Shown here piece by piece: positions 3,222-56,799 of a stretch of DNA of 64,000 nt; position 1 is the first letter of the stretch; each line of letters starts with the position of its first letter. This stretch comes from Phoenix dactylifera. Lineage: Eukaryota; Streptophyta; Magnoliopsida; Arecales; Arecaceae. The DNA lies in contig NC_052404.1 in assembly GCF_009389715.1 (NCBI RefSeq), forward strand, positions 12,701,756-12,765,755. The letters run 5' to 3'. The notes under the pieces were generated by a model, which saw nothing but the letters and a program-made list of their open reading frames with translations, ran no database searches and was not told where the DNA came from. The position numbers and the translations under genes were made by a program.

Positions 3222-3273
3222 ATAGATATAGTTGTTTTTTTTTTTTTTTTTGCTAAAATAGATATAGTTGTTT
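3222..3273 (-). mobile_element. Micro-insertion with oligo-A tail and 16-bp target duplication
   Basis: The 16-bp word ATAGATATAGTTGTTT occurs at 3222-3237 and again at 3258-3273. Between the copies lie a T run and GCTAAA, which on the minus strand reads TTTAGC followed by oligo-A. A long perfect target duplication next to an A tail is the signature of LINE-type target-primed insertion. The body is too short to name a family. Confidence 0.6.
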
Positions 3274-4154
3274 CGTTTGCCCTCTAGGTCAAGTCCATTT
3301 GATTTGAGTGGAGGCAACTTAAAAATTTGCAAACCGTTGACATTGAGATGCGAGAATCTCTTCCTTCTTGGAAACTCTGATTATGATCGTATGCTCTCTT
3401 ATAATTGCAGGATGTTCCTGATTTTGTTTTTGTACTTAGTTTGATTGCTCTCAACAACCAATTAAAGCTTACTGCAGGTACCCTAGACAAAACAAAGTCA
3501 AGCCAAATTACGTTTGTGCAGGTGCAAATGTGCACGTTATCCTCCTTCATTTGTCCAATCAATATGCACGCAGACACATTGAACTCTGTTCAGAGCAGGG
3601 CACTGGTGATATTGCTCAAATTCTATCCGACTATATTTTAATAATATAAAAATATAAAAAGTGTAGATCAATTCGTTCGATTCATGATGATGAAAGACGG
3701 GAGCTAATCTGCCATAAAGAGCTAGAAATCTGCATACAAAAAAAAAAAAAAAAAGGTTCACCAAGATGGTTTTGGTCGGTCTCTTCGGATATTTAAATTA
3801 GGCAGAATTTTGATATAATAGTGAGAAATAGTAAAAAAATAAAAAGTATATTTTTTGGACCGTTAGATCTGAATTTAGATGCTCGGCCATACGGTAATTA
3901 ATATTGTCTTGGATGCTTGATGTATTGCTCGGTCTAATCCGTCAAGCATAAAAAACAATAAGAGCGCGGGGCAATGCTGACATGCACAACTAAACTACGA
4001 AATAAATCGTCATATCGTGATCCGGTATGATGTAAAATATAAAAGACAGGTACAAATATGCCGGAGCACCATGGGCACGATGGAATTAATTTCTGGTCCT
4101 GAACAATGATAAAATCTTACGGTAGGTGTTGCAATATTTACAGAATTACAGAGA

Positions 4155-6153
4155 TCATGACCTGCCATCTTCCTCGTGCGTTGGATCCGAATCCTCTACG
4201 TCGAGTGCAGCAACCTTGGAATGGCCAATCCTTGGGAGGGCCTGAGCTCTGGTAGGTGGACGCGCGCTGTTCACCATTGCATCGCAGCCTGGCTTCTCCT
4301 CTTCCAGGTCCCCCGGAGGCAAGAAGCAGTCCACGGACAAGCCCCGTATATTAAAGTCTACCTCTTCGACGGCCCACGCCTCTTCCATGCGCGTCCTTGT
4401 GTGCCCATCATCGTCGGAGCCGCCGAACCGGAACAGAGATGCAGCGGTGCGCCCGGCGTGCGCGATATAGATGCCATCAATGGGCCGGTAGTCTTCGACG
4501 AATGACTCCATGGTGGTCTCCCAGTAGGCGCTCTCCTCGCTCGCGGATTTGATCCGGAGGAGAAGGGAGTCTTCTAATTGGACGAGCAGGCCGGTCCGCT
4601 GGCTGAAGTAGCCCCACACCGAGTGCCTGATGATCTCCACGCCGCCGCTGCTTCGGGCTCGCAGGGCCGCCGCTTGGGCGTCCAGCCTTAAGACGAAGCA
4701 ATCCTCGCCGTTCACCGCCTTCTCCCCGAGGCAGACAGCGTCGGAGAATAAGCTGGCCGTGGACCTTGGATCGAGACCCTGCGATGATGAAAAAGTCCAT
4801 CGGATTAATTGGCCGTGACGTCGTAAAGTGGACTTTTTGTCCGAAACCTACTGTGCTGCGCCCACGGAAACCGGCGAAACAGCGGACATCCCACCCACCA
4901 TGTGAGCTGTCTGCACTTGGCACATGGCTTCACGTTGGGCGGTCGTCCTCCGTTTAGCCTTCTGGCTCGAGAACGTACTCGATGCCGTGTACAAACAGAT
5001 GGCAAGACGGCGGCCCACTTAACTCTGACAATTGGTATACGTAACAACTGAATCCAAACGTGATTGACATGCATTAATTTTGATCAACGCGGTCTAGTTT
5101 CAGGGTCTAATTAAAGAAGGGTACCTGCTCTAGTGCTCTCCTCCTCTACAAGGATCAAATTTTAAGTAACTCCTCCTACTTGCTAAGATCGTATCGGGTC
5201 AAGGCTTAGTCTCAGCAGGGTTCTAATGTGGGCGAATAATCGCTTAACCGGCCCGCTGCTTAATTATGATTAAACTAACGCCCCCATGGAAGCAGCAGCA
5301 TGTTAATTTTGTTATGTCGTGTTGTTACCTGAAGAGCTCGGCGAAGGGGTCGTGGAGGTCCCCTAGAGGCATGGGACTGGTGCCATGGTGTTTGCCTCCA
5401 CGCCACCTTGCCGTCGCTGCCGGCGCTGATCTTGCGCCCAGCCACCACCAGCTCGAGGCACCACAGGTCCGGCTTCTTCTGCCAGAGCACGAACCCTCCC
5501 ATCTCCCCTCCACGTCCACCTTTGGTCACCTTCTTATTGGTAGGGCCGGTGTCATTGCCGTTCGCCGTGAGGAGTACTTCTGAGGCTGTCATCCTAACTT
5601 TCCCAATGGCATACATACTATTCACCGAGTTTAAAGCCTGCTCCCCGCCTGACGCTGCGATGTATTGCTGTATTATGTATTTCGCCATCGATGCCTCCTG
5701 CCATTTACACGGAACAAAAGGAGAGTAAGGAAAAAAAAAAAAAAAGAGGGGGGGTGGTTATAAATTAGGAGAAGAACATCTAGATGTTAACATCAAGAAT
5801 AGCTGTTTTTAGCACTGTTCGATAAACGTTAACATGCACAACGAAACAAGTCTTACAATAGGGTCCTCCGCTTTGATGTGGTGGCTGATGATGGATTTTT
5901 GGGCTTGGACGGGGAGCGGGACGAGGGGCGCACCGATAACGCCGAGCATGAGCTGGAGGAGCTCGGCTTCTCGGCCGAGAGAAGAGGGTGCAGGACGGTC
6001 TACATGGGATCGCATCCACGCCTTCATGTTGGTGTACAGAGATTTGTGGCTTCTAGAGTTGCCTCCGGACGAGAACATCTCTTCAGGGATTGGGACTTCG
6101 AGGACGGTGTCCAGACCATCTTCTCGGTCTAGGTTTGCGCTTAGCTTCCTCAT
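4155..6153 (-). CDS. DUF620 family protein, three exons
   Basis: Exons are 6153-5857, 5697-5329 and 4778-4155, giving 429 residues plus stop. Introns were placed at GT-AG pairs that keep the frame (donors after CCTATT and CTTCAG; acceptors ATGGCAG and CATCGCAG). The product follows the plant DUF620 family (PF04788) from end to end. The N terminus starts MRKL and carries DREDGLDTVLEVPIPEEMF. The middle has KYIIQQYIAASGG, FVLWQKKPDLWCLEL, WRQTPW and PPRPLRRALQGLDPRST. The C-terminal part has DGIYIAHAGRTAASLFRFG, HTRTRMEEAWAVEEVDFNI and GLSVDCFLPP. The start is the family's usual MRKL methionine. No signal peptide or membrane segment is apparent. The biochemical function of the family is unknown to me. 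Exons are markedly GC-rich, as is common in commelinid monocots. The frame is intact, so the gene looks functional. Confidence 0.9.
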
Positions 6154-6356
6154 GGAAGAAGAACCAGAAGAGATGCCGATGGAGACGCTGCAAATTATAA
6201 GTCTTCTTTGGCTTCTTCTTCTTCTCCACTTTTAACTCTCCATAGGGCTTGCCCCTGGTCGACAACTGGGCCCTTGCTGACTCGCTCTTCGATCGTGGCC
6301 GCACGCTCTCTTTCCTTTCTTCCTTCCTTTCTACCGGACGAGACTGACTTCGGTGT

Positions 6357-6370
6357 GCTTTATTTAAAGC
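6357..6370 (-). promoter_or_regulatory. Possible TATA-like element of the DUF620 gene
   Basis: On the minus strand this reads GCTTTAAATAAAGC, about 205 bp before the DUF620 start codon. The core TTTAAATA is a passable TATA box and the position would give a leader of about 175 nt. This is inference from motif and distance only. Confidence 0.3.
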
Positions 6371-7609: not shown

Positions 7610-7663
7610 GCCACCGCCTACCAGTTTTTTTTTTTTTTCCGCTTTGCCACCGCCTACCAGTTT
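7610..7663 (-). mobile_element. Micro-insertion with oligo-A tail and 18-bp target duplication
   Basis: GCCACCGCCTACCAGTTT is present at 7610-7627 and again, perfectly, at 7646-7663. Between the copies are a T run and CCGCTT; the minus strand reads AAGCGG followed by oligo-A. The length and perfection of the duplication make chance or replication slippage unlikely. Confidence 0.6.
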
Positions 7664-8152: not shown

Positions 8153-8301
8153 GTTTAATTGGGCTCACAACTATGCATTTGGCTATTTCGTAATCAACTG
8201 AGCAGCATGTATGGCAACAAATGCTGGGAGAGGGTTGCATCTTTCATGCCATCATTCATTTGCCTGCATAGATCTTGTTGGGAGATTACCCAAGTCACGA
8301 C

Positions 8302-8421
8302 AGAGAGGCGCCCGACCGAAGGGCGCCGACCAGAGAGGCGCCCGACCGAAGGGCGCCGACCAGAGAGGCGCCCGACCGAAGAGCGCCGACCAGAGAGGCG
8401 CTCTACTAGAAAGCGTCGACC
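8302..8421. repeat. 30-bp hairpin repeat, four copies, in U3 of the 5' LTR
   Basis: Four head-to-tail 30-bp units, the last one diverged. Each unit contains arms GGCGCCC and GGGCGCC around a 7-nt loop, so every unit could fold into a small hairpin. The same array has seven units in the 3' LTR. Confidence 0.9.
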
Positions 8422-8956
8422 AGGGGCAATCCCGCCACAGGACATTCCGCTAGGCGACCTGCTCGGCTCGGCACCTCTGCTAGGCCCATGCCTTAGCCGA
8501 ATATCCAATCACTGCCTAATCCTCCAACAGGTCCGACGACCAAGTACGTAACTCCACTACAACCTGCCACCATCCCTAAGCCATCAAAGCACAGGATCTC
8601 CACAGGAACTCGGCATGACCTGTCATTAATGCATAAGACCCCCTCGGGCCTCCGATGCACTCAGTCATTAAATGAACATAGCTCAAAACGATCTCCGGAT
8701 CACTGAACCATCAGAGCGTATGGCTCTCCCTGACCGCCGGTTCATTCGATAATAAATGCACTTACCATCCACGGACCCCAGGTCCACCATAGCCAGCGGT
8801 TCAACCACTCCAACAGGTCCGATCGACCGTGACAACTCCCTGATTCCGGTCCGATTCGGTCCCGTTCTCCACTACGCCATTAATGGGCCAAATCGTGCCC
8901 AATTATTACACAAGAGGATAAACCTCCTGTCACCTCCCAGGTAACAAAAATCCTCC

Positions 8957-8964
8957 TATAAAAG
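8957..8964 (+). promoter_or_regulatory. TATA box of the 5' LTR
   Basis: TATAAAAG in a CCTCC-TATAAAAG-GAAACC context; the 3' LTR has the same box at 19386-19393. Placement about 380 bp before the LTR end gives a normal U3/R/U5 arrangement. Confidence 0.7.
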
Positions 8965-9335
8965 GAAACCTGGAGGGAAAGGAAGGGGGGCCCCGAGAGA
9001 GAGAGAGACAGAGAACCCTCCTGGACCGGATAGAAAGAAGTAAACAGCATAGACACAAGGGAGGGGACGATCCTCTTCATTTTTCCTTATCTTATCCAAA
9101 TACTCTCCGGCCTGCTCTCTCCACATATTCCCCCTCTAACTTAAGCATCGGAGGGCCGGCGCCGGAGAGCCCGGCCACCGGCTTTTTTGCAGGACAGGCC
9201 AGGACGCACTCTTCTCCGCTCTCTCATCCCCGCGGAGGACGCAGTCGGCCGGCGCACCGCCGTCCGCCCTCCCGGCAGCGGAGCTCCTCCTCCCCTGGTT
9301 TCGCGGCGGCCCCCGGGTCCAATTTCCAGCAACAG

Positions 9336-9352
9336 TTGGCGCTAGAGGAAGG
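9336..9352 (+). other. Primer-binding site
   Basis: TTGGCGCTAGAGGAAGG follows the 5' LTR after one or two bases, where minus-strand priming starts. The TGG start fits pairing with a tRNA CCA end. I could not name the tRNA. Confidence 0.6.
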
Positions 9353-12300
9353 GCCCGAGTTCGCTGCCATGAAGCTAAGAAGCAAAGGGGCTTCCAACGC
9401 CTCTCGACGTCCTCCACCCAGTCCTGAGCATTCCGTCCGGAACTCACCACCTCCGGCCGAGTCAACCCCTCAGGTTCGGCCGAAGCAGTTTGATGCCCTG
9501 GTGCAACAAGTGCAAGCCTTGGCTACCGTTGTCCAAAGCTTGCAACCCAGGGGCATCCCAACGGCACCGCCTCCTCCGACTCCAGCTCAACCGGAGCCTC
9601 CTACAAGCGGACTTCCCCATCGAGGTCGGGACTCCCAAGTCCAGGCCTCCCTCTGGAGAGAGCATCCAGCCAGAGGCTACGGAGGCTGGCCACAGCCTTC
9701 AGAAGCCGAGTCGGTTCCAGGGCAACCTGCGCTCGAACGAACCGCTGCAGCGATCCTCCAGAATGATGAACTCGACAAGAAGGTCGAGAAGCTGGAACGC
9801 CAAATCCAGGCGCTCCACGGGAGAAAATCAGGACGTGATAACGACTTCGAGTTCACTACGAAGTCTCCTTTCTCCCCGGAGATCGAAGATGAATCGGTCC
9901 CACTACGGTTCAAAATGCCCCAGGTGGAGCCCTACAATGGCAAGGCCGATCCCCTGGACCACCTGGAGAGTTACCGGGTCTTAATGGCCCTACAAGGAGC
10001 CTCGGAGGCCATGATGTGCAAAGCTTTTCCGGCGACGCTCCGAGGGCCAGCCCGGCTTTGGTTCACCGGGCTGAAGCCGAGTACTGTCTCTTCCTTTGAG
10101 CAGCTCGGCAGACAATTTGCTGGCAACTTTGCCGCCAACCAGCCCCAGTGGCGGACATCCGACTCCCTCCTTGACATTAAACAAACGGAGGGAGAATCTT
10201 TCAAGGAGTACTTGGACCGGTTCACCGCCGCAACATGGGAGGTCCGGGAGCTCGACCAGTCAATCGCCATGTCGGCATTGAAGACTGGAGCCCGGTCCTA
10301 CAGATTCCTCTTCTCGATCGAGAAGAATTTCCCCACAGACCTCACCGAAATGATCACTCGGGCGCGGAAGTATGCCAAGGCAGAAGAGGCCGTGGCAGTT
10401 AGGCGGGGTGGGACCGAGCAGAACCCCAAGAAAAGACGCCGCGAGGAACGCGGCCGGCCCAGAAGCCCGTCTCCACGACGAGCTAAGAATCCGCCCCGCC
10501 CGAAGAGTCCACCCCGGTTGAGAGGACCGCCACAGCAGAGATCACCACTCCGCCCGAGGTTCCCACTGCAGGCCCGAGCACCCGAAAGGAGGTATGAAAA
10601 GTATACTCCCCTCAATGCTCCTCGGGCTGAAATCCTCATGGAGATTGAGAGTCGGGATGGCATCCGGCTCCCACCTCCGAAGCCAGACACCAGAATCCGG
10701 CGTGATCTCCGGAAGTATTGCCGTTTCCACCGGGATCACGGCCATGATACCGAGGATTGTTATCAGCTTCGAAATGAGATCGAAGCACTCATTCGCCGAG
10801 GGGTGCTTGATCGGTTTGTGCAAGGCCGGCGTGAAGGGAAGAAGCCAGCCGAAGGAGCAGCACAGCCTGAAGGTTCAAATGCCAACGGGCCCATCGCCGG
10901 CGTCATCAACACTATCCGAGGCGGGCCCTCGGCGAGAAAAGCCTCAGGAGAAGAAGCCTCCTCGAAGCGCCCGCGCACCACTGAAGCCATCTCCTTCTCT
11001 GATGACGATCTAGAGGGAGTCGAAACTCCCCATGATGATGCCATGGTCATCTCCATGATCATAAATAAATTTGATGTAAAACGCATCCTGGTTGATAATG
11101 GAAGCTCGGCGAATATTTTGTATTTTGGTGCTTATTGTAAAATGGGGATGACAAGAGAACAGCTACGGAGGACGAATGCTCCGCTAGTTGGATTCACTGG
11201 GGATTCAGTTCCAGTAGAGGGCGAGATCGACCTTCTGGTCACAGCCGGGCTCGCCCCACGTAAAAGTACCGTGGGAATGGGCTTCCTTGTAATACGCCTG
11301 CCCTCGGTTTACAACGCCATCCTCGGAAGGCCAGGACTCAACGCCCTCCGAGCAGTGGTCTCGACTCACCACCTGCTGATGCGATTCCCCACCAGCCAGG
11401 GGGTCGGTGAAGTCCGAGGGGACCAAATGGTGGCAAGGCGATGCTACCTAGCGACCCACGAGGCAAGACGACCAGCCGAGGTGCCTGCTCCAACGACTGA
11501 CCAGCCCTTAACTGAAGTTATGGAGGCACGGGTCAACCCCCAGAAAGAGCGGGTAGAGCCTGGTGAGTTGTTAATTCAAGTTCCCTTACGAGAGAACTTT
11601 CCCGAGCTAACCATGCAGGTCGGCTCTGGCCTTGGCGAAAACGAGAGGAGTCGCCTCGTCGACTTCCTACGGGACAATATGGATGTCTTCGCCTGGTCGC
11701 CTGCAGACATGCCGGGGATAGACCCGGAGGTCATGGTCCACCGGCTTCAGGTGAAGCCGACCTGCAAGCCCGTGCGACAAAAGAAGCGAGGCGCCGCCCC
11801 TGAACGACAACGAGCAGCAGCCGAGGAGGTCAGCAAGCTCCTTGAAGCCGGCTTCATCCGGGAGATATCCTACCCGGAATGGCTCGCCAATGTGGTCCTC
11901 GTCAAAAAAGCTAGCGGGAAGTGGCGTATGTGCGTGGACTACACCGACCTGAATAAAGCCTGCCCAAAGGACAGCTTTCCACTTCCCAGCATCGACCAGC
12001 TCGTGGACTCCACCTCAGGTCACGAGCTGCTAGCATTCATGGACGCCTTTTCCGGATATAACCAGATCCGCATGGCGCCAGAAGATGAGGAAAAGACAGC
12101 CTTCATCACCGACGGGGGAACCTACTGCTACAAAGTGATGCCGTTCGGTCTAAAAAATGCCGGGGCGACTTATCAAAGGCTGGTCAACCGGATCTTTAAA
12201 GACCAAATAGGCCGAAATATGGAGGTCTACGTGGATGACATGCTGGTGAAAAGCAAGGCGGCGCAAGACCACATAGCCGACCTCAATGAAGCATTCACCA

Positions 12301-12797
12301 CACTCCGAAAGTACCAGATGAAGCTCAACCTAGCTAAATGTGCATTCGGGGTCACCTCCGGTAAATTCCTCGGCTTCATCATTACACAACGAGGAATCGA
12401 GGCCAATCCAGAGAAGATCCGAGCCCTCCAAGGGATGACGCCTCCCAGGACGGTCAAGGAGGTACAGCGGCTCACGGGCCGAGTGGCAGCCCTCGGGAGG
12501 TTTATCTCCCGCTCGGCCGAGCGCTGCCTTCCATTCTTTGCAGTCCTCAAGAAGCCGAAGAACTTTTTGTGGTCGGACGAGTGCCAGCAATCTTTTGAAG
12601 ACCTCAAGCACCTGCTGGCTTCCCCTCCCCTGCTCACGAAGCCTCAACAGGGTGAGCTCCTCTACTTGTATTTAGCTGTCTCCCCTGTAGCAGTAAGCTC
12701 GGTCCTGGTCCGAGAGGAGGGGATATTATTGGCCGACACTCCAGAAGGATGCTATGGATTTCGTCCAAAGATGCGACCGGTGCCAAAGGAACGCTAA
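9336..12797 (+). CDS. Gag and first part of pol (protease, reverse transcriptase)
   Basis: One long open frame; the first ATG is at 9369. From N to C it contains the following. A Gag domain (Retrotrans_gag type) lies at about residues 190-345 (e.g. PLDHLESYRVLMALQGA, then SFKEYLDRFTAA). A basic Arg/Pro/Ser-rich stretch follows. A zinc-knuckle-like motif with CRFHRDHGHDTEDC comes next. The aspartic protease has VDNGSSANILYF. The reverse transcriptase has WRMCVDYTDLNKACPKDSFP, AFMDAFSGYNQI, MPFGLKNAGATYQRL and the catalytic YVDDMLVKS. In family elements this polyprotein builds the particle and copies RNA to DNA. It is treated here as a fossil part; the whole pol set is not intact. Confidence 0.9.
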   Translation: MALEEGPEFAAMKLRSKGASNASRRPPPSPEHSVRNSPPPAESTPQVRPKQFDALVQQVQALATVVQSLQPRGIPTAPPPPTPAQPEPPTSGLPHRGRDSQVQASLWREHPARGYGGWPQPSEAESVPGQPALERTAAAILQNDELDKKVEKLERQIQALHGRKSGRDNDFEFTTKSPFSPEIEDESVPLRFKMPQVEPYNGKADPLDHLESYRVLMALQGASEAMMCKAFPATLRGPARLWFTGLKPSTVSSFEQLGRQFAGNFAANQPQWRTSDSLLDIKQTEGESFKEYLDRFTAATWEVRELDQSIAMSALKTGARSYRFLFSIEKNFPTDLTEMITRARKYAKAEEAVAVRRGGTEQNPKKRRREERGRPRSPSPRRAKNPPRPKSPPRLRGPPQQRSPLRPRFPLQARAPERRYEKYTPLNAPRAEILMEIESRDGIRLPPPKPDTRIRRDLRKYCRFHRDHGHDTEDCYQLRNEIEALIRRGVLDRFVQGRREGKKPAEGAAQPEGSNANGPIAGVINTIRGGPSARKASGEEASSKRPRTTEAISFSDDDLEGVETPHDDAMVISMIINKFDVKRILVDNGSSANILYFGAYCKMGMTREQLRRTNAPLVGFTGDSVPVEGEIDLLVTAGLAPRKSTVGMGFLVIRLPSVYNAILGRPGLNALRAVVSTHHLLMRFPTSQGVGEVRGDQMVARRCYLATHEARRPAEVPAPTTDQPLTEVMEARVNPQKERVEPGELLIQVPLRENFPELTMQVGSGLGENERSRLVDFLRDNMDVFAWSPADMPGIDPEVMVHRLQVKPTCKPVRQKKRGAAPERQRAAAEEVSKLLEAGFIREISYPEWLANVVLVKKASGKWRMCVDYTDLNKACPKDSFPLPSIDQLVDSTSGHELLAFMDAFSGYNQIRMAPEDEEKTAFITDGGTYCYKVMPFGLKNAGATYQRLVNRIFKDQIGRNMEVYVDDMLVKSKAAQDHIADLNEAFTTLRKYQMKLNLAKCAFGVTSGKFLGFIITQRGIEANPEKIRALQGMTPPRTVKEVQRLTGRVAALGRFISRSAERCLPFFAVLKKPKNFLWSDECQQSFEDLKHLLASPPLLTKPQQGELLYLYLAVSPVAVSSVLVREEGILLADTPEGCYGFRPKMRPVPKER

Positions 12798-13701
12798 TGT
12801 TCAGCGCCGGCCCTCGGCTCCCTTGACTCCTATCAGCTCCCCTTGGCCTTTTGCCCAGTGGGGAATTGACATCCTCGGGCCATTTCCACTGGCCACCGGG
12901 CAAAGAAAGTTCCTGGTCGTCTCCATCGACTATTTCACCAAGTGGGTGGAAGCTGAGCCCCTCGCCCGGATCACCGAGCAGAAGATGCGGGATTTCGTCT
13001 GGAAGTCCATCATTTGCAGATTCGGGCTTCCCCGCATCCTTATCTCTGACAACGGTCGCCAATTCGACAACATCCATTTCAGAGAGTTCTGCTCCGAGCT
13101 TGGCATTGACCACCGCTTTACCTCGGTCGCGCATCCTCAGACAAACGGAGAAACCGAGGTAACAAATCGTACTATTTTGCAGGGTCTCAAAACCAGGCTC
13201 GACAAATCCAAAGGACAATGGGTCGAAGACCTATACAATGTCCTGTGGGCTTACCGGACTACGTTCCGCGTCCCCACCGGCGAGACTCCCTTCAACCTGA
13301 CATATGGGACAGAGGCCGTCATTCCACTAGAGATTGGGCTCCCCTCTCCAAGAGTCGAGCACCACGATGCTAGCTCCAACTCTTCGCAGCTCAGAGGCAA
13401 CCTCGACCTGATCGAGGAAACAAGGGAGATCGCCCGAGTGCGTATGGCAAGGTACCAGCAAAAGACAGCTCAGTACTACAACACCAGGGTCAAAGTCAAA
13501 TCTTTCAGACCAAGGGACCTTGTCTTAAGAAGAGCTGAAACCTCCCGACCAACTGAGCGAGGGAAGCTGGCCCCGAATTGGGAAGGACCATACCGAGTCA
13601 CGCGCATTCGCCGACCCGGAACTTATCAATTGGAGTCTCTAAATGGGACTCCCATTCCACGGAGCTGGAGCTCTGAAAATCTCCGCGTGTACCACCAGTA
13701 G
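12754..13701 (+). CDS. Integrase part of pol
   Basis: An open frame separate from the gag-RT frame. It carries the DDE integrase core: WGIDILGPFP, then LISDNGRQFDN, then AHPQTNGETEVTNR. The typical plant gypsy tail follows (VLWAYRTTFRVPTGETPFNL, then LAPNWEGPYRV). In the family it inserts the DNA copy and makes the 5-bp target duplication seen at the element ends. Fossil part of the Tat element. Confidence 0.88.
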   Translation: MDFVQRCDRCQRNANVQRRPSAPLTPISSPWPFAQWGIDILGPFPLATGQRKFLVVSIDYFTKWVEAEPLARITEQKMRDFVWKSIICRFGLPRILISDNGRQFDNIHFREFCSELGIDHRFTSVAHPQTNGETEVTNRTILQGLKTRLDKSKGQWVEDLYNVLWAYRTTFRVPTGETPFNLTYGTEAVIPLEIGLPSPRVEHHDASSNSSQLRGNLDLIEETREIARVRMARYQQKTAQYYNTRVKVKSFRPRDLVLRRAETSRPTERGKLAPNWEGPYRVTRIRRPGTYQLESLNGTPIPRSWSSENLRVYHQ

Positions 13702-13944
13702 AACCCTGAGGGGTTCCCCATTATTCAACCATTGAATTTCATTCTATAAATTTCATTTCACAATAAACCGATGGTTTGCGAACTTATTCCGAGCTCCCCA
13801 ATTTTCCTGATCATCTCACGGTACAAGGTTTATTCTTCTTCCCCGACCACGGTTGGGATGCCCCGATGCCTCGGGATGATGGAGTACCTGCGTGGACCCC
13901 CTGAAGATGTCCGTGAGTTCGTTGTGCGCTCCCCATCAACCAAC

Positions 13945-14774
13945 GAGCTCGGCTCGTGCTCCATCTATTGAGTAGCGGTCCTCTCTGACCGGACGAGCCC
14001 GGCTCGTGCTCCATCTATTGAGTAGCGGTCCTCTCTGACCGGACGAGCTCGGCTCGTGCTCCATCTATTGAGTAGCGGTCCTCTCTGACCGGACGAGCTC
14101 GGCTCGTGCTCCATCAACTATTGAGTAGCGGTCCTCTCTGACCGGACGAGCTCGGCTCGTGCTCCATCTATTGAGTAGCGGTCCTCTCTGACCGGACGAG
14201 CCCGGCTCGTGCTCCATCTATTGAGTAGCGGTCCTCTCTGACCGGACGAGCCCGGCTCGTGCTCCATCTATTGAGCAGCGGTCCTCTCTGGCCGGACGAG
14301 CTCGGCTCGTGCTCCAACTATTGAGTAACGGTCCTCTCTGACCGGACGAGCTCGGCTCGTGCTCCATCAACTATTGAGTAGCGGTCCTCTCTGACCGGAC
14401 GAGCTCGGCTCGTGCTCCATCTATTGAGTAGCGGTCCTCTCTGACCGGACGAGCCCGGCTCGTGCTCCATCTATTGAGTAGCGGTCCCCTCTGACCGGAC
14501 GAGCCCGGCTCGTGCTCCATCTATTGAGCAGCGGTCCTCTCTGGCCGGACGAGCTCGGCTCGTGCTCCAACTATTGAGTAACGGTCCTCTCTGACCGGAC
14601 GAGCTCGGCTCGTGCTCCATCAACTATTGAGTAGCGGCCCTCTCTGACCGGACGAGCTCGGCTCGTGCTCCAACTATTGAGTAACGGTCCTCTCTGACCG
14701 GACGAGCTCGGCTCGTGCTCCATCGACTATTGAGTAGCGGTCCTCTCTGACCGGACGAGCTCGGCTCGTGCTCC
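13945..14774. repeat. 50-bp minisatellite, 16 units plus a partial, with higher-order structure
   Basis: Head-to-tail units of 50 bp (53 bp in a CATCAACTA variant). Each begins with the hairpin ACGAGC - 3 nt - GCTCGT and ends with CTCTCTGACCGGAC. Units 4-8 and 9-13 carry the same order of variants, so a block of five units (about 253 bp) has been copied as a whole. It lies between integrase and the antisense gene of the Tat element. It is not a CRISPR: there are no unique spacers and the unit varies continuously. Confidence 0.93.
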
Positions 14775-14927
14775 TACCCCGACCTCGGCCGGGATGCCTC
14801 GAGATGTCGAGATGCCCCGGTTCATCGGGATGCCCCGATACGTTGGGATGATTTCTTTATTGGCCAAACAAGCTCGGCTCATTCTCTACCAGCTTCAACC
14901 AACGAGCTCGGCTCGTTCTTCATCGCT

Positions 14928-15375
14928 GGATTTCTCTGCCGACGTCCCCAAAGAACGGAGTCCGAGCAGAGAAGCGTCTTCAGTCGCCTCGGCGCCAGGA
15001 CGCACACGGTACAAGGTACCCATTTATTTAACATTTTTTATCTATTCTGCTTTTGGATTTCTCTGCCGACGTCCCCCAAGAACGGAGTCCGAGCAGAGAA
15101 GCGTCCTCAGTCGCCTCGGCGCCAGGACGCACACGGTACAAGGTACCCATTTATTTAATATTTTTTAATCTATTCTGCTTTTGGATTTCTCTGCCGACGT
15201 CCCCAAAGAGCGGACGCCGAACAGAGGAACGTCTTCAGTCGCCTCGGCGCAAGGACGCATATGGTACAAGGTACCTATTCATTTAATGTTTCTACATTGT
15301 CTTGGGTTTTTCTCTGCCGATGTCCTCAAAGAACGGACGCCGAGCAGAGGAGCGTCTTCAATCGCCTCGACGAAG
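14928..15375. repeat. About 127-bp tandem repeat, four copies
   Basis: Copies start near 14928, 15055, 15183 and 15304, each opening with TTTCTCTGCCGA and containing CGGACGCCGA/CGGAGTCCGA, GCAGAG and GGTACAAGGTACC. Identity falls in the fourth copy. No coding role is evident. Confidence 0.85.
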
Positions 15376-15896
15376 GAGTGCTCATGACACCAGCATATTA
15401 TTACACTAAGTCCGGTGAATTTCCGTCACGAGTTGACGAGCATTCGACCCATTCGTTGGAAACGAATCTGGTACGCCCCGACAACGCGAGGGTCGAAGTT
15501 TACTAACTTCGCAAAAATAAATTTTAAGCCGAACCCAAACCCAAACCTTAGAGCTTGGTCGAAATCTGGGCTAGGCTCAGAAGGACTCTCCGAGCCCAAA
15601 TCCTCTGAGCACAAGCGGTACTTTACCACTGGTCGAAGGACTGAGTAATGGAGCTCGACAAGCCGAACCCAAACCCAAACCCTGTGGCGGGTAAAGCTCA
15701 GGCCCTAGAGCCCATATCCTCGGAACCTAAAACAGATCCGAGCAGAGAAACTTAGACTACAATAGACGAGTTTCCACACATGAATATTCATTTCAAAAAG
15801 CCCGGAGGCCTAGTACAAGAGCTCGGACCCGGCTTTAAAGTATAGAGGCCGCTCCGGCTTACAAAAAAGAAAAAGAAGATAGGAAAAAGGGGAAAA

Positions 15897-18109
15897 CTAC
15901 ACCAAGGGCTCAGGCCCGGCGACTTCAGGAACAGTTGGCTCTTCTGCGGCCGAGGCCCCCACAGTGGCCTTGGGAGCTGCCTCGGTGACCTCGAGAGCGA
16001 TCTCGCCTTCTTCAGCTTGACCCTCCTGGTCGGTCCCGCCAGAGGTTGGAACCTCTACCTCCGCCTCCGCTTCTGGGTTTTCGACCCCAGCGCCTGGTTG
16101 AAGCAGGCTAAGGTCGAAATCTGGGAGAAGTCGCCGCAACTGATTGCGGAAGTCCTTGAAGCCCTGGATGAGACCATTGACGCCTTCCTCTTCCATCAAG
16201 TCGCGAAAGTCTTCCGATTCGCGGAAGAGCTTGACGGCGTCCTGGGCCTGCTCCCGGGCCTCCTTCTCTCGAGCCTCGTGGTAGGCGGCCTTCCGCTCCA
16301 AAATCTTTATCTCTCTTTCGCGATCCGCGAGCAGAGATTGCACGTCAAGTAGACGGATCTCGAGATCTCGGACCTTTATTCGAGCCTCCCCCACCTCCTG
16401 CTCGCGTATAGCGAGCGACGATTCGGCCTCCGTCCGGCGGGCCTCCGCGGCGCGCACTTCAGACATAGTCAAAGAGTGCGCGCCCTTCTCCTCTTCAAGT
16501 TCGGCGACCAGAGTCCGAACCTCGTCTTCGGCCGCCCCTAGCTTCGCTTGAAGCACTTTCTGCTCGGCCTCAGACGCGAGGAACTTTGTTTCGGCCTCCT
16601 CGCGCCCCCTTTGATGCCTTCGGGCCCGGTCCCGGTAGTCCTGGATGATGTGAATCATCGTCTCGGTCTCGTGGAGGCGCTGCAAGAGGGACATGTAAGA
16701 AACAGTTCTAAGCCGAAACACAAATTTGCACAGATAAAAGCTGACTTACTCGGATGGAAGAGCAAATAGCGGAGTCCATGAACTCGCCGTAGTTCATGGA
16801 CCGAATTTTGGCCTGGTCGGCCGGGAGCAGCGCGACCCGAAGAACTTCGCGCGCCACTTGTGCATTATCGAGGGCCGAGTCGCCCTCGAAAACAGCCCAT
16901 CCAAAAGCGTAAGGCATCCGCTCCTGAGGACCCGAAGAACCCGCCAGACCGGCCTCAGCTGGCCTGGGTGCGGCCGACCCCGTTGCTTCTTGGCTATTCC
17001 CCGGCTCAGAGCTGGGGAATTGGGGTCGAGTAGACGGCTGACCGGACCGCTGCGTGGTAGAGGTGGGGCGTGCGAGCGCCAGATCTGTTGAGGTCCTCCC
17101 TCCCTGGTCGGAATTTGGAGCTTCCCGCCGACCAGGGACTTGCGAAATCGGCACCGAACACGGAAGTGCCATCGTGGCTCCGCCAGAGCCCACGCCCTCT
17201 CCCCGACCAGCCTCAGGGCGCACGGGGCGAGAAGCGCGCGCCTCAACTGTTGTGGTCGTCGAGGTCTTCGCCGAGGTCTTTGCTTTCTTCCTCGGCTCGA
17301 TCGGTTCTCCTGAGAGTTCGGCCGCTCTCTTCTGAAACCGGGCATATAGGACCTCGCTCTTGGTCACCATCTTTGCGATATCTGCAAGGACGAGCAGGAT
17401 TAAAACTTAGAAACTGTAACAAAAAAAAAAACACCCTACTGCTACTCTTACCATGGGGACGCGCCGAGCTCAGCCCAACATTCACTAGGGCATCCTCACT
17501 GATGAGGCCGCTCAGTAAGATGCCGCCCCCAAGGCTGCGAATAGTGTCGAGGACCCCTTGCTCGCGCGAAGAAAGCTTAGGGATTTTGTTGACAGACTTG
17601 AGTTGGGTTGGCCCCCACCTAGGGTTAAATCCCCATGTCTGTTCAGACCCTAGGAGGAAGAACTTCTTCTTCCAGTCATGAATGGACGAGGGGGCACCCT
17701 GAAAAAGTGGCCGACCCGCCCGAAGGGCAATATAGAGCCACTCTCCGTCTCCCGGATTCGACTTTAGCACAAAAAGTCGCCGGAAAACGTTAACAGAGGT
17801 CGGAATCCCGTGTAATAAGCACAGCGACAGGAACCCGATCACTGTTCTCCAGGCATTCGGAGCGAGTTGCGCCGGAACCAGCTGGTATTCCGTTAGCAAC
17901 TCATTCACGAAGCCGTGGAGAGGAAACCGTAGGCCAGCCCAGAGTGATTCCAGATACACTCCAATCCGGCCTACCGGAGGGTCGGTCACCCGATCCCCCT
18001 GCCTGGCGGGTTCCAACCGGAACCCTTGGAGAGGAAAGAACCATTCCTCAGTCATTTCCACCTCCAGTACACCCATGGTGGACTCGACTTCATTTGGACC
18101 GGAACCCAT
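15897..18109 (-). CDS. Antisense accessory gene of the Tat element (PF04195-like plus coiled coil)
   Basis: Three open blocks lie on the minus strand, in order about 18109-17450, 17385-16740 and 16685-15897. The first starts MGSGPNEVEST. It has the features of the plant 'putative gypsy type transposon' domain (PF04195), e.g. GFVNELLTEYQLVPAQLAPN, WRTVIGFLSLCLLHGIP and SIHDWKKKFFLLG. The second is Pro/Ser/Arg-rich and low in complexity. The third is a long Glu/Arg-rich coiled coil ending in an acidic Ala/Glu/Pro tail. The gaps between blocks have GT and AG edges and could be short introns. Antisense reading frames at this place are known from Tat-lineage elements; their role is unknown. A TATA box lies just upstream. 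Treated as a fossil part. Confidence 0.75.
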
Positions 18110-18247
18110 TAGGAAAAAGGAAAAGGGATTTTGGGAGAAAAAGAAGAAAAGGGAAAGGGACCTGTGAGACGCCGGGAACAAAAACCTCGGACTGAGAAAA
18201 ATTGGAGGAAAAAGACAATAAGAAAGGAGAAGGAAGCCAGGTGAGGG

Positions 18248-18258
18248 TTTATATAAAT
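18248..18258 (-). promoter_or_regulatory. TATA box for the antisense gene inside the Tat element
   Basis: The minus strand reads ATTTATATAAA about 140 bp before the antisense ATG at 18109, and about 360 bp inside the 3' LTR border. It is a near-ideal plant TATA box with a fitting leader length. It suggests that the antisense gene is driven by an internal promoter and not by the LTR. Confidence 0.6.
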
Positions 18259-18600
18259 CCCTCCAACGGCCCAGATCAGCGAGGAAAAACGCTGCTCCCC
18301 ATTCGGGTTACGACTCGTGTCAATCCAAAAGACAAAACGCCGCATTTATTCCGGGCTGACGCTTCGGACACAGAAGCGCCCTATCGAATCACACGGCCCC
18401 ATCATGAGCCCACGACGCGAGGACGCTTCGAAGAAGGCGTCCCGATAATGGGGTATCCTCGGAAAAGAAGAAACGCCGCCTATTAAAGGCGCCTCAAAAC
18501 GCGCAATAATTCGAGAACGTGCAATAATTTTAAAAATTTTCCATAATAACCCAACTAAAACTACTTCCCGCGCTCAAGCTGGTAGCCAGCTAGAACTAGG

Positions 18601-18614
18601 AAGTCGGGGGGTAG
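18601..18614 (+). other. Polypurine tract
   Basis: AAGTCGGGGGGTAG directly precedes the 3' LTR start TGTTGGGAG, the usual place for plus-strand priming. Confidence 0.7.
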
Positions 18615-47886: not shown

Positions 47887-48524
47887 CGTTTGTGATCGAA
47901 CCTCCTCTTATGCAACTGATGAGAAGCCGTACCGTCCGATCTAAAATTCCATGGTAATGGATCAGATAGTGTATGTTTTAGATTGCGCCCGATGATTTCC
48001 GGGGACTTCTCTGCGGTGGGCTGGCCAGCCCATTTCATGATTTGCTTAATCTTGGGTGTCTGAGTCCGACGTCTGTTAGATACCAGGCCGGCCCACGGAA
48101 GTTTGCCTACCAATGCTAAAGCTGACGTAAGACCGACGCATAGGGACCCACGGGCAGGTGCGTGTGGTTAAGGCTTTGAGAAAGATCTGACGACGCTTTG
48201 CTTTAAATCTTTATTGCATCCTGCCTGGTGGCAGCTCACGCTTAGTTGCCAATGGACGATCCAAGTCATTCAATCCAAGCAACGTGGATCTTATTTCTTT
48301 TACCTGGATTATGCGTTTGGATCCAGCTAAAGCCTAAATAGCATCTGGAATTCCTTCTGTCGCATGAGTTGGGGCGGATCAAGCATGCCATGGTGATGTG
48401 ACCTGTGACACACGATGAATGCTTAAGAAATGTCATGCTGTCTAGATCAGATATGTTCTTCGAGAAGCGAATTAAGTAGTTGCTAATTAGATCTTCTTAT
48501 TTGCTATAGCTTTATTGTAGCTAG

Positions 48525-48593: not shown

Positions 48594-49373
48594 AAGAAGC
48601 AGCAGCAGCAGCACCTTCGTGGGCTTGACCCAGCTCATGAATATGAAATATCATCGACCAGCTGGTTAGACTCCCGAAAGACGAGACACGAGGGACACGA
48701 AAGATTCCGTATAACTTGCCAGGCCATTGGTCCGGTGGTCCCCGATATGGAGTCTCCCGCCGGAGCAATGCTGTCACCTTTTGAACCAATTTATCTCTTT
48801 TTTAAGTAAATTGCAAAATACAAGATTATGGTGCGGCAATCCTGTCACTTTTTGACACCAGGCCATCACAGATTGGTTCAAAACTGAAGAGCCTGGCAAG
48901 TAAATTGCTTATAACGCGGCAAAGTAAAATCGGGTACCGATGCTGATGCAAGTAGAATATTGAGAAACTAAACCCGCTAGATCGCGACCTGCATCAGTGA
49001 CATTGTGATAGAGAGATCGTAACTCCGAAGTCCGACCAAGGGAATTCCGAAAGGCCATATTATCGAGGTCTCTCCTGCTCAAATACAATTTCGATGCTTC
49101 GTAGGTAGATATATCCTGACAGTAAGTCAATAACTGCTTAATATTGTTGATTAAAAAATAAATTAAAATTACTCAACAAGTAGAAATTCAGAGGTTCACT
49201 ATGGCTTGTGTACCAAAATCAAAAAATGGAAAGGGGTTCGCTATGGCTTCTAAGTGGTTTGCTAAGTCACGATACTCGCAGTGATTGACTTAGCCATATA
49301 AATTGCAGGATAGTGGTGCAAAAGCAGTAGCCTTGTGGCTGGTGAATATGCCAAGCAAATTTTGAACATAAAA
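47887..49373. other. Intergenic DNA with a long TA microsatellite
   Basis: No gene recognised. 48529-48590 is a TA dinucleotide run of about 60 bp, followed by AGCAGCAGCAGCAGC. The last five bases (49369-49373, TAAAA) are the target duplication of the adjoining TRIM. Confidence 0.6.
48529..48590. repeat. (TA)n microsatellite
   Basis: About 31 uninterrupted TA units, likely length-variable between individuals. Confidence 0.95.
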
Positions 49374-51735: not shown

Positions 51736-54700
51736 ATGGCACAGTGCGTGCCAATTCTAGTGTTTGTTGTAGCTTTCCTCAGATTCATGGCTGACGCAGC
51801 TGTTGTTGAGCATACGTTCCGTGTAATTTAATCTATTCAAACGCACGCCTTTATTTCCTGCAACATTAATTCTTACCGGCCATCTCTCTTAATTAGTGCC
51901 TTGAGTGTGGTCCTACTGTTTTCATTGCTAGTAGAATACCAATGCTTTAGTTGCATTTTGGCATGCGGTGCTCGAGAATCTCCCTCATGGAGTAACGGGG
52001 AATGATACATGCATGACTTTAATGGTGTTCTGTATGAGGATAGCTGGTTGTGATGTTAGGGCACAACGGGCGGCAGCTACTCATTTGCGTGTGAGCCGCT
52101 GCCTCGATGGATAGATAGCACAACTATTATAGCTAGCACGTGCCAAATTAGAGAACCCAAGTTGATAGGGTATGCAGACGCGTATGCTTGTAGCTCGAGC
52201 TCATTCTCGGAATTGCCCTGTTAATTATTGCACCTGATCATCTTTCTCCACGGCGGTCTATAATTTGTTCCACCATATTATCAATCAAAAAACCATTCGG
52301 AAGCTGAGGTGCCAGATTGCTTCTCAATTTTCTCAATTTTGTTGGTACATATATAATCACCTCCAAAGTTCTGTCGGTTAATCGGAGCACTCATTTTAAT
52401 TAAAATAATTTTTTTTTTCCATTGCCGCTGAGAACCCAGCATCAAATCTGAATTTTACTAGAGCTATATTTATCTCTCTCATTGAGATATAGATGATGCC
52501 TAGGTCGCTGCCTATATAATCCTCTTTGGTTCGAGGCGTGGGGAGAGAATTCATTCAACTAATCCCACCAACTTGCGCTAGTTAATAATGGCCGCATCCA
52601 AGCCTCACATCTTTAGGAATCTTGATGCAGCATCCTCATCACTGAGTAATGCCTCAGTTTCGAAGGGAGCACTACTGTAATTATATTATTTCTTAATTTA
52701 AAGGTTAGCTCCAAGTTTTATTAGATTAAGCTGATGATGATGATGTTGGTGTGACATGGGCGGCATATTATATTGTTTGTTGCTGGAACTTTATTAGCAT
52801 ATTTTGGTGATGAATTCAGCTGGGTCTTCTGGGACTGGAGCAAGCTTGATGGTGTTGTGCTATCATGTGTAGGTGGGAAACCTCACGGTAAGGCGGCTGT
52901 GCGAAAACAGGGTGATCACCGCTGTGAATGGCCGTTTACCGGGGCCGACCATAGAGGTCCACGAGGGTGATACCTTGGTGGTTCATCTCATCAATGACTC
53001 ACCCTACAACTTAACAATTCACTGGTAAGATGATCCGTAACGTCCATATATAAGCTTTATTTTAGCTTAACAAGATGAGGCCATGTTGGTGGGTGCAGGC
53101 ATGGAATATTTCAGCTACTGTCCGGTTGGGCCGATGGGCCGAGCATGATAACCCAATGCCCAATACAACCTAGGAACTGCTATGCCTACAGATTCAACAT
53201 CACCGGCCAAGAGGGTACGCTGTGGTGGCATGCCCACAGCTCCGTCCTCCGAGCTACAGTCTATGGCGCTCTCATCATCCGACCCAGAAACGGCACCGAG
53301 GCCTTCCCCTTCTCCAAACCTGACAAGGAAGTCCCCATTCTTCTAGGTATAATTCATTACTATAGCACACTCTTCCATTACCATCGATCGATCGCTAGTT
53401 CACCACCTACGTGCGTGAGCTCTGCATGACGGCCGAGAACGCACTGACATGCAGGCGAGTGGTGGAACGATGACATCGTCGACATGGATAGCCAGGCCTT
53501 TCTAACGGGTGGCGCCCCCGGTGATTCGGACGCATATACCATCAATGGAAAACCTGGCGACCTCTACCGCTGTTCTAGCAACCGTGAGTCCACAAAGTCC
53601 TAGCGGTTTTGTTCATCTGGGATGTCTCGAACAATAGAAACTAGTTTTGCCGCATTTACCAAAAAAAAAAAAAACAATAGAAACTAGCCAGCAGAATTTT
53701 ATTGCAATAAACTGGGCGCTGGTTCATAATCTGATCGTTGCATCTGTGTTGGCCTAGCTGCAGAGATGTACAAGCTGGAAGTGGAGCAGGGGAAGAGCTA
53801 CTTGCTCCGCATCATCAATGCGGCTCTGAGTAAGGAGCTCTTCTTCAAGGTTGCCGGGCACTCCTTCACCGTGGTAGCAGTGGATGCCAGCTACACCAAA
53901 CCGTACGAAACGGATGTCGTTGTCATCGCCCCAGGCCAGACGGCCGACGCCCTCATGGTCGCCGATGCCCCTCCTGCAGCCAGCTACTACATGGCTGCCC
54001 TCCCCTACATCAGCACAGCTCCCTCACCTCCCCCACGGCCATCCTTCGACAACACAACCACCCGAGGCATCGTCCGGTACGAGCCCGCCATGCCATCGGC
54101 CGCCAGCTCGCGACCTGTGATGCCAGCGATGCCCTCCTTCTTCGATAATGATGTCGCCCACCGCTTCTTCACCAGCTTAACCGGTCTCCTAAGGCCGGGA
54201 GACCCCACCGTCCCTCTCCATGTGGACGAGCACATGGTGGTCACCTTCGGGTTGGGCGTCGCTGCTTGCGAAGCGAGCCAACTGTTGTGCAATCGGAGCC
54301 GAGGAGCGACCGCTGCCAGCATGAACAACGTGTCCTTCCAGTTTCCAACCAAGAAGTCGCTGTTGGAGGCCCATTTTCGGGGTGAGAAGGGGATCTACAC
54401 ATCGGACTTCCCTGACACTCCACCGGTATTCTTCGATTTCACAAACCCTGCCGTGAATGTAAATCCGGCCCTGCAGTCCTTGTGGTTCACGACCAAAGGC
54501 ACCAAGGTGAAGAAGGTGAAGTACAACGCGGCGGTGGAGATGGTGCTGCAGAACACGGCGATACTCGGGATCGAGAACCATCCGCTGCACCTCCATGGCT
54601 TCAACTTCTTTGTGCTGGCACAAGGGTTTGGCAACTACAACGCGACCAGCGCAGTGAAGAGCTACAACCTGGCGGACCCGCCGGCGAGGAACACCATCGC

Positions 54701-55029
54701 CGTGCCCACCGGCGGATGGGCGGTCATCCGATTCACTGCCAACAATCCAGGTATACGTATATGTATGCTCAGTGTTTTAACACTCTACCGATCGATACCC
54801 ACCCTCGGCAGCTAGCTGGTTAATTAGGACAGTGGAACTAACAATCTAATTACTATGTGCTTCGACTGAATTAATTTGTGTTTTGACTTGATCTATAGGT
54901 GTATGGATCATGCACTGCCACCTGGACGCTCACCTGTCCTCGGGGTTGGCGATGGCGTTCGAGGTGGAGAACGGATCCACCCCGGAAACGACCCTCCCCC
55001 CTCCACCTCCGGACTATCCCCGTTGTTAG
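51736..55029 (+). CDS. LAC: Laccase (plant multicopper oxidase), six exons
   Basis: Exons: 51736-51822, 52873-53024, 53099-53346, 53455-53583, 53758-54750, 54899-55029. The total is 1740 nt, 579 residues, the usual laccase size. A signal peptide ([21 protein letters not shown]) is followed by [17 protein letters not shown]. All four copper-ligand segments are intact: H79-W-H81-G, W-W-H124-A-H126, H480-P-L-H483-L-H485 and H542-C543-H544 with H548. The type 1 axial position is L553. Many NxT/NxS glycosylation sites are present. The protein is secreted and oxidises phenols with reduction of O2 to water; roles in lignin or flavonoid polymerisation are typical. The exon 5 acceptor is ambiguous: TAG/CTGCAG/AG allows NPAEMY or NQMY, a two-residue difference. 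Coding exons are GC-rich, intact and without premature stop. Confidence 0.93.
53630..53687 (+). mobile_element. Micro-insertion with oligo-A tail and 15-bp target duplication (in laccase intron 4)
   Basis: AACAATAGAAACTAG occurs at 53630-53644 and 53673-53687. Between the copies are TTTTGCCGCATTTACC and about 12 A. The gene's splice sites are not touched. Confidence 0.65.
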
Positions 55030-55889
55030 AAGCAGCCCAACGAGGTTACAGACAGCGGCCGGACAAAGACGAAGGCCGCCGTCTCGACCGCAAGTTTATT
55101 TCTATTTTATTATACTGTTCGTTGCAATATCGTAACACTGCGTCATTCCCTCTGCCTTCGTTGCGATTTATTTTGTTGGTTTGGTTTGGAATGAATTTTG
55201 TAAATTGATTTGTCCTTTCTATCCGTCCACTCTTTGAAATATTTATATATACTGCGACCGCCGACCAGCTTTGTCTTCTTTCCTATGAACCGTCATCAAG
55301 TGAATTCAATAAACTGCAAGCTCGAACATCTCATAAGTCATAGCAGTATTATTAATTATTGGTAACTAATGACTAACAGAATTTTCTCGAAAAAAAGTAA
55401 GAGAAGTTTGAGCTGTAAAGAATCAAGTAACCCTCATTTTCCCCGCTTGAAGGCGTTCATCCTGTAACGTAGCCCACTCGATCTGTAGCGTTTTCCAATA
55501 GATGAGCGTTCTCCATGCAACCTGTCCAAGTTATTCCGGAATTTCTACAAATCCCTTTTTTCGTGATAACATTGCGGCTTCGATTTATTTCTCAAGAAGA
55601 GACATCGTGGGAGGAAATATAACTTTACTGGCTTCTCTCATTTCATTGACACTGCTCCTCGACGAAAATGGAAAACATATTCATCTGTACATGACACGAC
55701 CCGCTTCGTACGTTCTCCGGCCTCGCATCGCCGTTGGGCTCAGACTACCGGGCTCGAGCGGTCACCAGATCGTAATGGCACGTGCCAGATCCTTCCCAAC
55801 AAGGAGCTATTCATAAAATCTGGTCAGGCATTACATCAAACACTTATCATGCACCATGCTTAGCGGATCCCCCGCGCTTCATCTCAAGG
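55030..55889. other. Downstream flank of the laccase gene
   Basis: It holds the presumed 3' untranslated region (AATAAA at about 55308) and otherwise unassigned sequence. No gene recognised. Confidence 0.5.
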
Positions 55890-56660
55890 CCACATTAAGT
55901 TAGCAGAGAAAGAGGACTGCGTTCCTTCCGAGGTATTGTCCACTTTGGGTGCTCCGGCCCGCGCGTCCAGCGCAGACGGGGGGAGACCACTGCCCTCACG
56001 ATTTTGCCCTTCAAAAGGCATCTCGAGAGGAAAGGATTTCCATCCCCCATTTAAGGCACAAAGAAAACTGAAGCAATTGCTACATTTAAAATCTGCTGCG
56101 CTACAAAATCCTCTAAGATAGGCACTTTGCCATACCACAAGGCATGCTATAAGGAGTCGCATCATCCAAAATGTGATGTCTGCCATGAAACCGCTACTTG
56201 CCGATGTGGGACTAAATTCAAGGCCCCTCTCCCCCCCAACATAGCCCCCCAAGAGGAAAGGTTCTTGAGTCTCTGCAGTTCCGAGGGGTAGTCAACGGTG
56301 GGAGGAGGCGCCCCCTACCTGGCGCGCCATCTGTTGCGGGGACGGCTTTTGGCCGGAGCCTCACACAACAGCATAGCCCACATTAAGCTAGCAGAGAAAG
56401 AGGACTGCGTTCCTCTCGAGGTATTGTCCGCTTTGGGCGCTCCGGCCCGCGCGTCCAGCGCAGACGGGAGGAGACCACTGCCCTTTGAGCGCTCCGGCCC
56501 GCGCGTCCAGCGCAGACGGGGGGAGACCACTGCCCTCACGGTTTTGCCCTTCAAAAGGCGCCTCGAGAGGAAAGGATTTCTATCCCCTATTTAAGGCACA
56601 GAACCTTTCCGCTACTAGCCGATGTGGGACTAAATTCAGAGCCCCCCGCGCCCCGCAACA
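55890..56660 (-). mobile_element. Very short TRIM-like LTR relic
   Basis: The right LTR (56332-56660, 329 bp) is bounded by the inverted ends TGTTGCGGGG and CCCCGCAACA. The left copy ends at 56241 and is damaged. They share CACATTAAG-TAGCAGAGAAAGAGG, CTCCGGCCCGCGCGTCCAGC and GCCGATGTGGGACTAAATTC. The inside is only about 90 bp. It has a minus-strand purine tract beside the left LTR and a primer-site-like TGGCGCGCCAGGTAGG (minus strand) beside the right LTR, so the element points leftward. There is no coding capacity. It is broken (one LTR). Confidence 0.75.
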
Positions 56661-56751
56661 CATATATTTGTCAGCTCGCAAGGGCTTCGCGAGAAAGAAG
56701 CATTTGCTAGCTACTTCTGAATCGGAGTCTTCATTTTCCTTATAATCTTCG

Positions 56752-56799
56752 CAACATAGACCATCTTTTTTTTGCTAGGACACAACATAGACCATCTTT
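56752..56799 (-). mobile_element. Micro-insertion with oligo-A tail and 17-bp target duplication
   Basis: CAACATAGACCATCTTT occurs at 56752-56768 and 56783-56799. Between the copies are a T run and GCTAGGACA; the minus strand reads TGTCCTAGC followed by oligo-A. Confidence 0.65.

Follow-up and report, generated by a model that had tools for sequence, protein, structure and literature searches.

How do short words come to be repeated perfectly around a run of A and only a handful of further bases, and what sets the size of the DNA between them? This question is raised by a window of 64 kb from Phoenix dactylifera (the whole stretch of DNA analysed; contig NC_052404.1, C13:12,701,756-12,765,755), in which a preliminary description had reported seven such structures and had interpreted them as target-primed insertions driven by long interspersed nuclear elements (LINEs). 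All seven were found where it had placed them, each with a perfect duplication of 11–18 bp. The structures are target-primed insertions. They were almost certainly made by LINEs, and most of them carry a LINE 3′ end as their body. In addition, these bodies appear not to be randomly tiny, their length apparently being set by a stem-loop at the 3′ end of the LINE RNA.

A-tailed insertions in the window

The seven sites, and an older one, are listed below. All sites are described in the orientation of the strand that carries the A run, and on that strand every site has the same layout, i.e., duplication, short body, A run and duplication.

3222-3273, minus strand: micro-insertion, 16-bp duplication (3222-3237, 3258-3273), A17 tail, body TTTAGC
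7610-7663, minus strand: micro-insertion, 18-bp duplication (7610-7627, 7646-7663), A14 tail, body AAAGCGG
31444-31485, minus strand: micro-insertion, 13-bp duplication (31444-31456, 31473-31485), A9 tail, body ATTGTACCC
34814-34860, minus strand: micro-insertion, 14-bp duplication (34814-34827, 34847-34860), A13 tail, body GGTGCACC (8 nt)
40654-40718, plus strand: micro-insertion, 11-bp duplication (40654-40664, 40708-40718), interrupted A tail, body TGAATTCCCGTTGTACC (17 nt)
53630-53687, plus strand: micro-insertion, 15-bp duplication (53630-53644, 53673-53687), A14 tail, body TTTTGCCGCATTTACC (16 nt)
56752-56799, minus strand: micro-insertion, 17-bp duplication (56752-56768, 56783-56799), A8 tail, body TGTCCTAGC
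49190-49248, plus strand: older micro-insertion, duplication AGAGGTTCACTATGGCT / AGGGGTTCGCTATGGCT (2 mismatches), decayed A tail, body TGTGTACC (8 nt); weaker than the other sites, as its scan score of 9 was also reached by shifted controls

The window contains 46 A/T runs of at least 8 nt. A strict scan, in which an A run of at least 8 nt had to adjoin a perfect word of at least 11 nt, passes six of the seven sites; 40654 is missed because its tail is interrupted. Chance was rejected as an explanation, since strict cases averaged 0.025, with a maximum of 1, in 200 shuffles that left the A/T tracts unmoved, compared to the six observed. Shuffled sequence, which the preliminary description had named as the comparison that could undo it, thus speaks for it. 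One further candidate, at 35322 (body 32 nt, A7, word TGTACCGTACC, no AA start), was set aside as probably due to chance. A search of the window for longer bodies (20–10,000 nt, word of at least 11) returned two long-range matches, fewer than in shuffles, and one more match inside a tandem array.

The polarity of the structures is constant. The A run abuts the downstream duplication in all six strict cases, with no mirror case, and a single case with the A run beside the upstream copy appears at the loosest threshold (A run of at least 6, word of at least 9). The duplications fall within the range of LINE-type insertions (about 7–20 bp). They start with AA at six of the seven window sites and in 13 of the 18 cases listed overall, which is only partly independent evidence because maximal extension into the tail favours A. 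An empty site exists for 34814: a paralog on contig C3, approximately 70% identical, has one TGTGGCTCATTGTT between matching flanks, without T run or body, and the alignment score to this paralog rises from 192 to 202 when the window flanks are joined without the insert. An ATC repeat just upstream in the paralog blurs the left flank beyond its last few bases. The paralog searches covered four of the seven sites; for 3222 and 56752 (flank searches) and for 31444 (query 31380-31560) no empty paralog was found. Polarity, AA starts and this empty site uphold the LINE-driven, target-primed insertion that had been proposed for the structures.

LINE 3′ ends as the source of most bodies

The words preceding the A runs were counted in the 773-Mb assembly (2,391 contigs), with reversed words and one permuted word as controls; for repeats, the counts are lower bounds. 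Followed by A10, GTTGTACC, the tail word of 40654, has 308 copies (reversed control 0), GCTTTAGC 187 (control 1), GTCCTAGC of 56752 35 (control 1), CGCATTTACC, the tail word of 53630, 21 (control 0) and GGTGCACC of 34814 6 (control 0), while ATTGTACCC of 31444 followed by A9 has 32 (control 0). The permuted word TGTTACGC, derived from GTTGTACC, has 2 copies (control 0). Recurrence before A runs, with 21–308 copies, therefore holds for the tail words of four window sites and for a relative of the fifth's. The preliminary description had sorted the bases before the A run into groups and had suggested two or three source families, of which these bases would be the 3′ ends. Its ACC and TAGC groups stand, as related LINE subfamilies. 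Its AAGCGG group falls away as a recurrent family: the word CAAAGCGG from 7610 with A10 has 4 copies (control 1), which is the background level. Read on the opposite strand, the 7610 body AAAGCGG gives CCGCTTT, a word found before AGC in the LINE end at locus L008, possibly by coincidence.

Most tail words are taken as 3′ ends of related plant LINEs because longer copies show them in that place. The copies read, up to 1.5 kb upstream of the tail word, comprise 50 of the 308 for GTTGTACC, 8 of the 35 for GTCCTAGC and 4 of the 5 outside the window for GGTGCACC. Of the GTTGTACC copies read, 44 retain a stem-loop region upstream and many run on into long LINE sequence, homology extending in several to the edge of the 1.5-kb locus. 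Upstream of GTTGTACC lies the C-terminus of ORF2, with zf-RVT in L027, L040 and L025 and RVT_3 (RNase H) in L027 and L040; a frame of 485 aa in L027 matches RVT_3 at 1.6e-20 and zf-RVT at 2.7e-14. From these C-terminal domains, the source would be a plant LINE of the L1 clade. A source among short interspersed nuclear elements (SINEs), with Pol III boxes and a body of 80–350 nt, does not agree with bodies of 6–18 nt, nor with the ORF2 found upstream in the longer GTTGTACC copies checked.

For the other words, five of the eight GTCCTAGC copies read are LINE ends with a stem-loop. The word GGTGCACC presumably resembles the 3′ end of tRNA-Gly or U2 snRNA, candidate sources that were dropped once LINE ends with this word had appeared; it is found below LINE-like stem-loops in L061 and L063 (a duplicate pair) and in L062, its scarcity (6 copies) limiting the assignment. 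The 3222 body TTTAGC fits a subfamily ending in ATATCTATTTTAGC, and ATATCTATTTTAGC with A17 occurs at three other loci below LINE-like stem-loop sequence; the LINE match at 3222 spans 6 to 14 nt, as up to 8 nt are common to the target. The CGCATTTACC family is represented by its genome count, no longer copy having been read. Further LINE ends met in random 10-kb stretches of the genome close with ATTGTACC, TTTTCACC, TTTTGACC and GCTTTAGC; of these, ATTGTACC closes the LINE 3′ end in L012 and may be compared with the 31444 body ATTGTACCC.

A stem-loop eight nucleotides from the tail

The LINE 3′ ends share a predicted stem-loop. In its inner stem, positions -32 to -28 pair with -20 to -16 around a 7-nt loop, 44–55 of the 57 ends being paired per position. 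In the outer stem, positions -14 to -9 pair with about -41 to -36. When tail lengths of 4 to 15 nt were tried on 52 longer ends, a test made without stubs, outer-stem pairing peaked at 8 nt, with a z of 11.1 relative to shuffled upstream sequence and of 7.0 and 6.5 for the neighbouring lengths; L032 was omitted from this and the other pairing tests because of an offset. The base of the predicted stem-loop thus lies 8 nt from the poly(A). Among ten chosen ends over five tail words, nine have 5–6 of the 6 outer-stem pairs, L027 having 4. The paired sequences differ by family, i.e., GGTTGC/GCAGCC, GGGTG/CACCC, GGATG/CATCC and GGCGT/ACGCT. These LINEs accordingly carry the conserved 3′ stem-loop near the tail that marks the stringent type.

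Lengths and frequency of the stubs

The body lengths in the window and in a random sample (20 stretches of 10 kb, 196,726 known bases) are, irrespective of family (n = 14), 6, 6, 7, 7, 8, 8, 8, 8, 9, 9, 14, 16, 17 and 24 nt, the last including a run of six C. Bodies cluster at 6–9 and at 14–18 nt. The 34814 body is exactly the 8-nt tail and the 56752 body TGTCCTAGC is the 8-nt tail GTCCTAGC preceded by one extra T. Five stubs from the word searches (L041, L050, L079, L056 and L058) each match the LINE over exactly 8 nt, of which 4, 1, 3, 2 and 0 nt, respectively, are shared with the target. Two longer stubs, the 17-nt body at 40654 and the 18 nt that precede the C run in L010, extend as far as the inner stem's base. 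This latter stub (L010:7882) has its extra C run between the LINE end and the A tail, possibly an untemplated addition. The next bodies, of 42 (L038), 49 (L081) and 53 nt (L035), contain the whole stem-loop, and no LINE-assigned body of 19–41 nt was found among those read. Longer GTTGTACC copies flanked by duplications have bodies of 232, 668, 699 and 806 nt, with some weaker candidates besides. Within this family, stubs are a minority, given that 44 of the 50 copies keep the stem-loop region.

Left out before counting, as low complexity or chance, were the 35322 candidate, two in L030 (2241, body 39; 1299, body 98) and one in L035 (30, body 618), while L005 and L010 were retained despite their low-complexity duplications. 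The density of one event per about 9 kb given in the preliminary description is a local one: the window has 7 in 64 kb, whereas the random sample has 6 in its 196,726 bases, i.e., one per 33 kb. At the latter rate, at least 7 in the window have a probability of 0.004, so that the window is rich in these insertions or was picked for being rich. The random stretches also contain 6 longer A-tailed LINE ends (counted by eye), the same number as stubs. No stubs besides the focal elements and the set-aside candidates were found in 30 LINE loci (90 kb). Before A runs of at least 8 nt, ACC or AGC is present in 7 of 12 duplication-flanked cases versus 11 of 217 others (p 3e-6); the 11 include 40654 and three LINE ends.

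Proposed mechanism and alternative explanations

The lengths suggest, in our opinion with fair probability, that the stubs are products of abortive reverse transcription whose extent is set by the LINE's own 3′ stem-loop. A plant LINE protein would nick the target beside AA(A) and prime on the poly(A) of the LINE RNA. The enzyme would then copy the A tail and about 8 unpaired bases, until the base of the conserved 3′ stem-loop stops it; in fewer events, it would open the outer stem and be halted at the inner stem, 14–18 nt in. The stop may be caused by the LINE protein itself holding the stem-loop. Joining of the stub cDNA, often via a few bases of microhomology, would give the full target duplication of 11–18 bp. 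More tentatively, the recognition stem-loop might be a checkpoint of the reverse transcriptase at which most starts end as an integrated product of 8 or 14–18 nt. If so, stubs would be comparable in number to conventional LINE copies and would scatter A/T tracts and small indels throughout the genome.

Three other explanations were considered. Ordinary 5′ truncation, in which reverse transcription may break off anywhere, the stem-loop having no influence and the stubs being the low end of a broad range of lengths, agrees with the spread of the GTTGTACC copies, which comprise stubs, bodies of 42–53, 135–275 and 668–806 nt and copies beyond 1,500 nt, and with the modest share of stubs among those read (6 of 50). 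Evenly spread truncation over at least 1.5 kb would nevertheless give fewer stubs than are seen: the window and the random sample together hold 13 of them and, save for one set-aside case, no duplication-flanked body of 25–1,500 nt. Lengths moreover gather at 8 and 14–18 nt, without LINE-assigned bodies of 19–41 nt, and we regard truncation as unlikely. Still less probable is the use in trans, by a relaxed LINE enzyme, of any short adenylated RNA, such as mRNA ends or fragments of tRNA and snRNA. Plant L1-type enzymes are thought to accept any poly(A) RNA (PMC3747384), and 7610 and three random-sample bodies lack a LINE family; against this, five of the seven ends in the window agree with recurrent LINE 3′ ends, and GGTGCACC also occurs below LINE-like stem-loops in L061, L063 and L062.

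Double-strand-break repair, producing a tandem duplication with filler DNA, or slippage was rejected and has a negligible probability. Break repair in plants is known to make short duplications with filler, and some ten further isolated direct repeats of 11–22 bp, which lack A runs, occur in the window. Neither process accounts for the constant polarity of the A runs, the AA targets, the recurrent LINE words in the supposed filler and the clean empty site at 34814.

Returning to a stop set by the stem-loop, several observations weigh against it or against a LINE source for all bodies. The events are few. The word searches are blind to LINE matches below 8 nt, while they would have accepted longer ones; the LINE match at 3222 may reach 14 nt; two of the candidates left out had bodies of 32 and 39 nt; and the L079 stub lies within an older local duplication of 34 bp, its target word being present twice upstream. 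The stem-loop is absent in only 6 of the 50 GTTGTACC copies read, 3 of these 6 having a perfect duplication. Relatedness of the ends inflates the z of 11. In the GTTGTACC family, outer-stem pairing (0.678) stays below the highest value among 500 re-pairings (0.705), and that of the inner stem (0.847) equals, without exceeding, the highest among 1,000; these figures are not probabilities, as the copies are decayed and related. Covariation within this family is weak. The enrichment of ACC/AGC is weak outside the window as well (2 of 6 versus 10 of 177, p 0.05). Finally, the bodies CTTCAAAC, TGTATC and AGAATATTTCAATC of the random sample and that of 7610 were assigned to no LINE family.

Comparison with known systems

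Plant LINEs of the L1 clade likewise have a poly(A) tail, target duplications of the usual length and an ORF2 whose C-terminus directly precedes the 3′ end, but the copies described here are stubs of 6–18 nt. Similarly, 5′-truncated L1 copies and processed pseudogenes share the A tail, the target duplication and the AA-type target, whereas their bodies measure tens to thousands of bases. For the hairpin of the monocot L1 lineage (Ohshima), a CGAG following the stem on its 3′ side and a UCU within the loop are described; most ends studied here carry GAG next to the inner stem, on its 3′ side.

A resemblance also exists with the stem-loops of stringent-type LINEs, such as UnaL2, ZfL2 and the maize and sorghum L1s with ZmSINE2/3 (PMC4176376, PMC5135761, PMC3747384). 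The shared elements are the loop, a 5-bp inner stem, an asymmetric internal loop and an outer stem near the 3′ end. A bulge 4–6 bp from the loop is described there as the layout in LINEs including a maize L1 (PMC5135761), proteins of fish LINEs bind and require their own 3′ stem-loop (PMC4176376), and a 3′ hairpin is conserved in one group of monocot L1s (PMC3747384). The difference is that the stem-loop is proposed here to limit product length besides its role in recognition; no such statement was found in the available parts of the three papers. Human L1 ORF2p offers a physical reason for a stop near the stem, as the protein anchors a stem-loop of its template, leaving 15 single-stranded nt between it and the active site (PMC10830416). 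That system differs in being a human enzyme on a synthetic template, and the available part of the paper does not mention stub insertions. A search of literature titles and abstracts for stub LINE insertions in plants found none, although a prior description is still possible.

Each stub would record where a LINE reverse transcriptase stopped. As stubs freeze this stopping point, a genome-wide set would show the pauses of the enzyme from sequence alone. Such a set would also show that about 15–45 bases of cDNA are enough for integration. Homology-based repeat annotation cannot detect this class of insertions, which can be mistaken for microsatellites or indels.

Other features of the window

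No tRNA genes or Rfam families were found in the window. A scan for the [FY][AVMI]DD motif of LINE reverse transcriptases met only the gypsy element described below and one stop-filled frame, and searching with a LINE 3′ end profile yielded a single weak match (48404-48504, E 0.0011). Gene exons encode a DUF620 protein (4155-4715), a RING-variant protein (38665-39144) and a laccase-like multicopper oxidase (53766-54815), with a GC content at third codon positions (GC3) of 0.70–0.75 in two of the exons, a value that points to a monocot. The 53630 insertion sits 79 bp upstream of the laccase-like exon. Adjoining the 56752 insertion, and not part of it, is a 31-base exact match (56711-56741) to C14:17651965-17651995.

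The isolated direct repeats of 11–22 bp whose junctions carry no A run, and which may have arisen by break repair, are found at 1690, 24232, 28740, 33723, 35322, 35767, 35993, 36537, 62999 and 63833; at 35767 the copies are separated by a C14 run. A fairly young long terminal repeat (LTR) retrotransposon is also present (8301-19771). Its direct repeats (8301-9335 and 18730-19771) are 98.6% identical and enclose gypsy-type gag, reverse transcriptase (RT) and integrase domains (9336-13701) as well as a Transposase_28 frame (17243-18181). Arrays of 30-bp units are present at both repeats (8301-8423, 18640-18832), and an array of approximately 16 units of 50 bp lies within the element (13943-14774).

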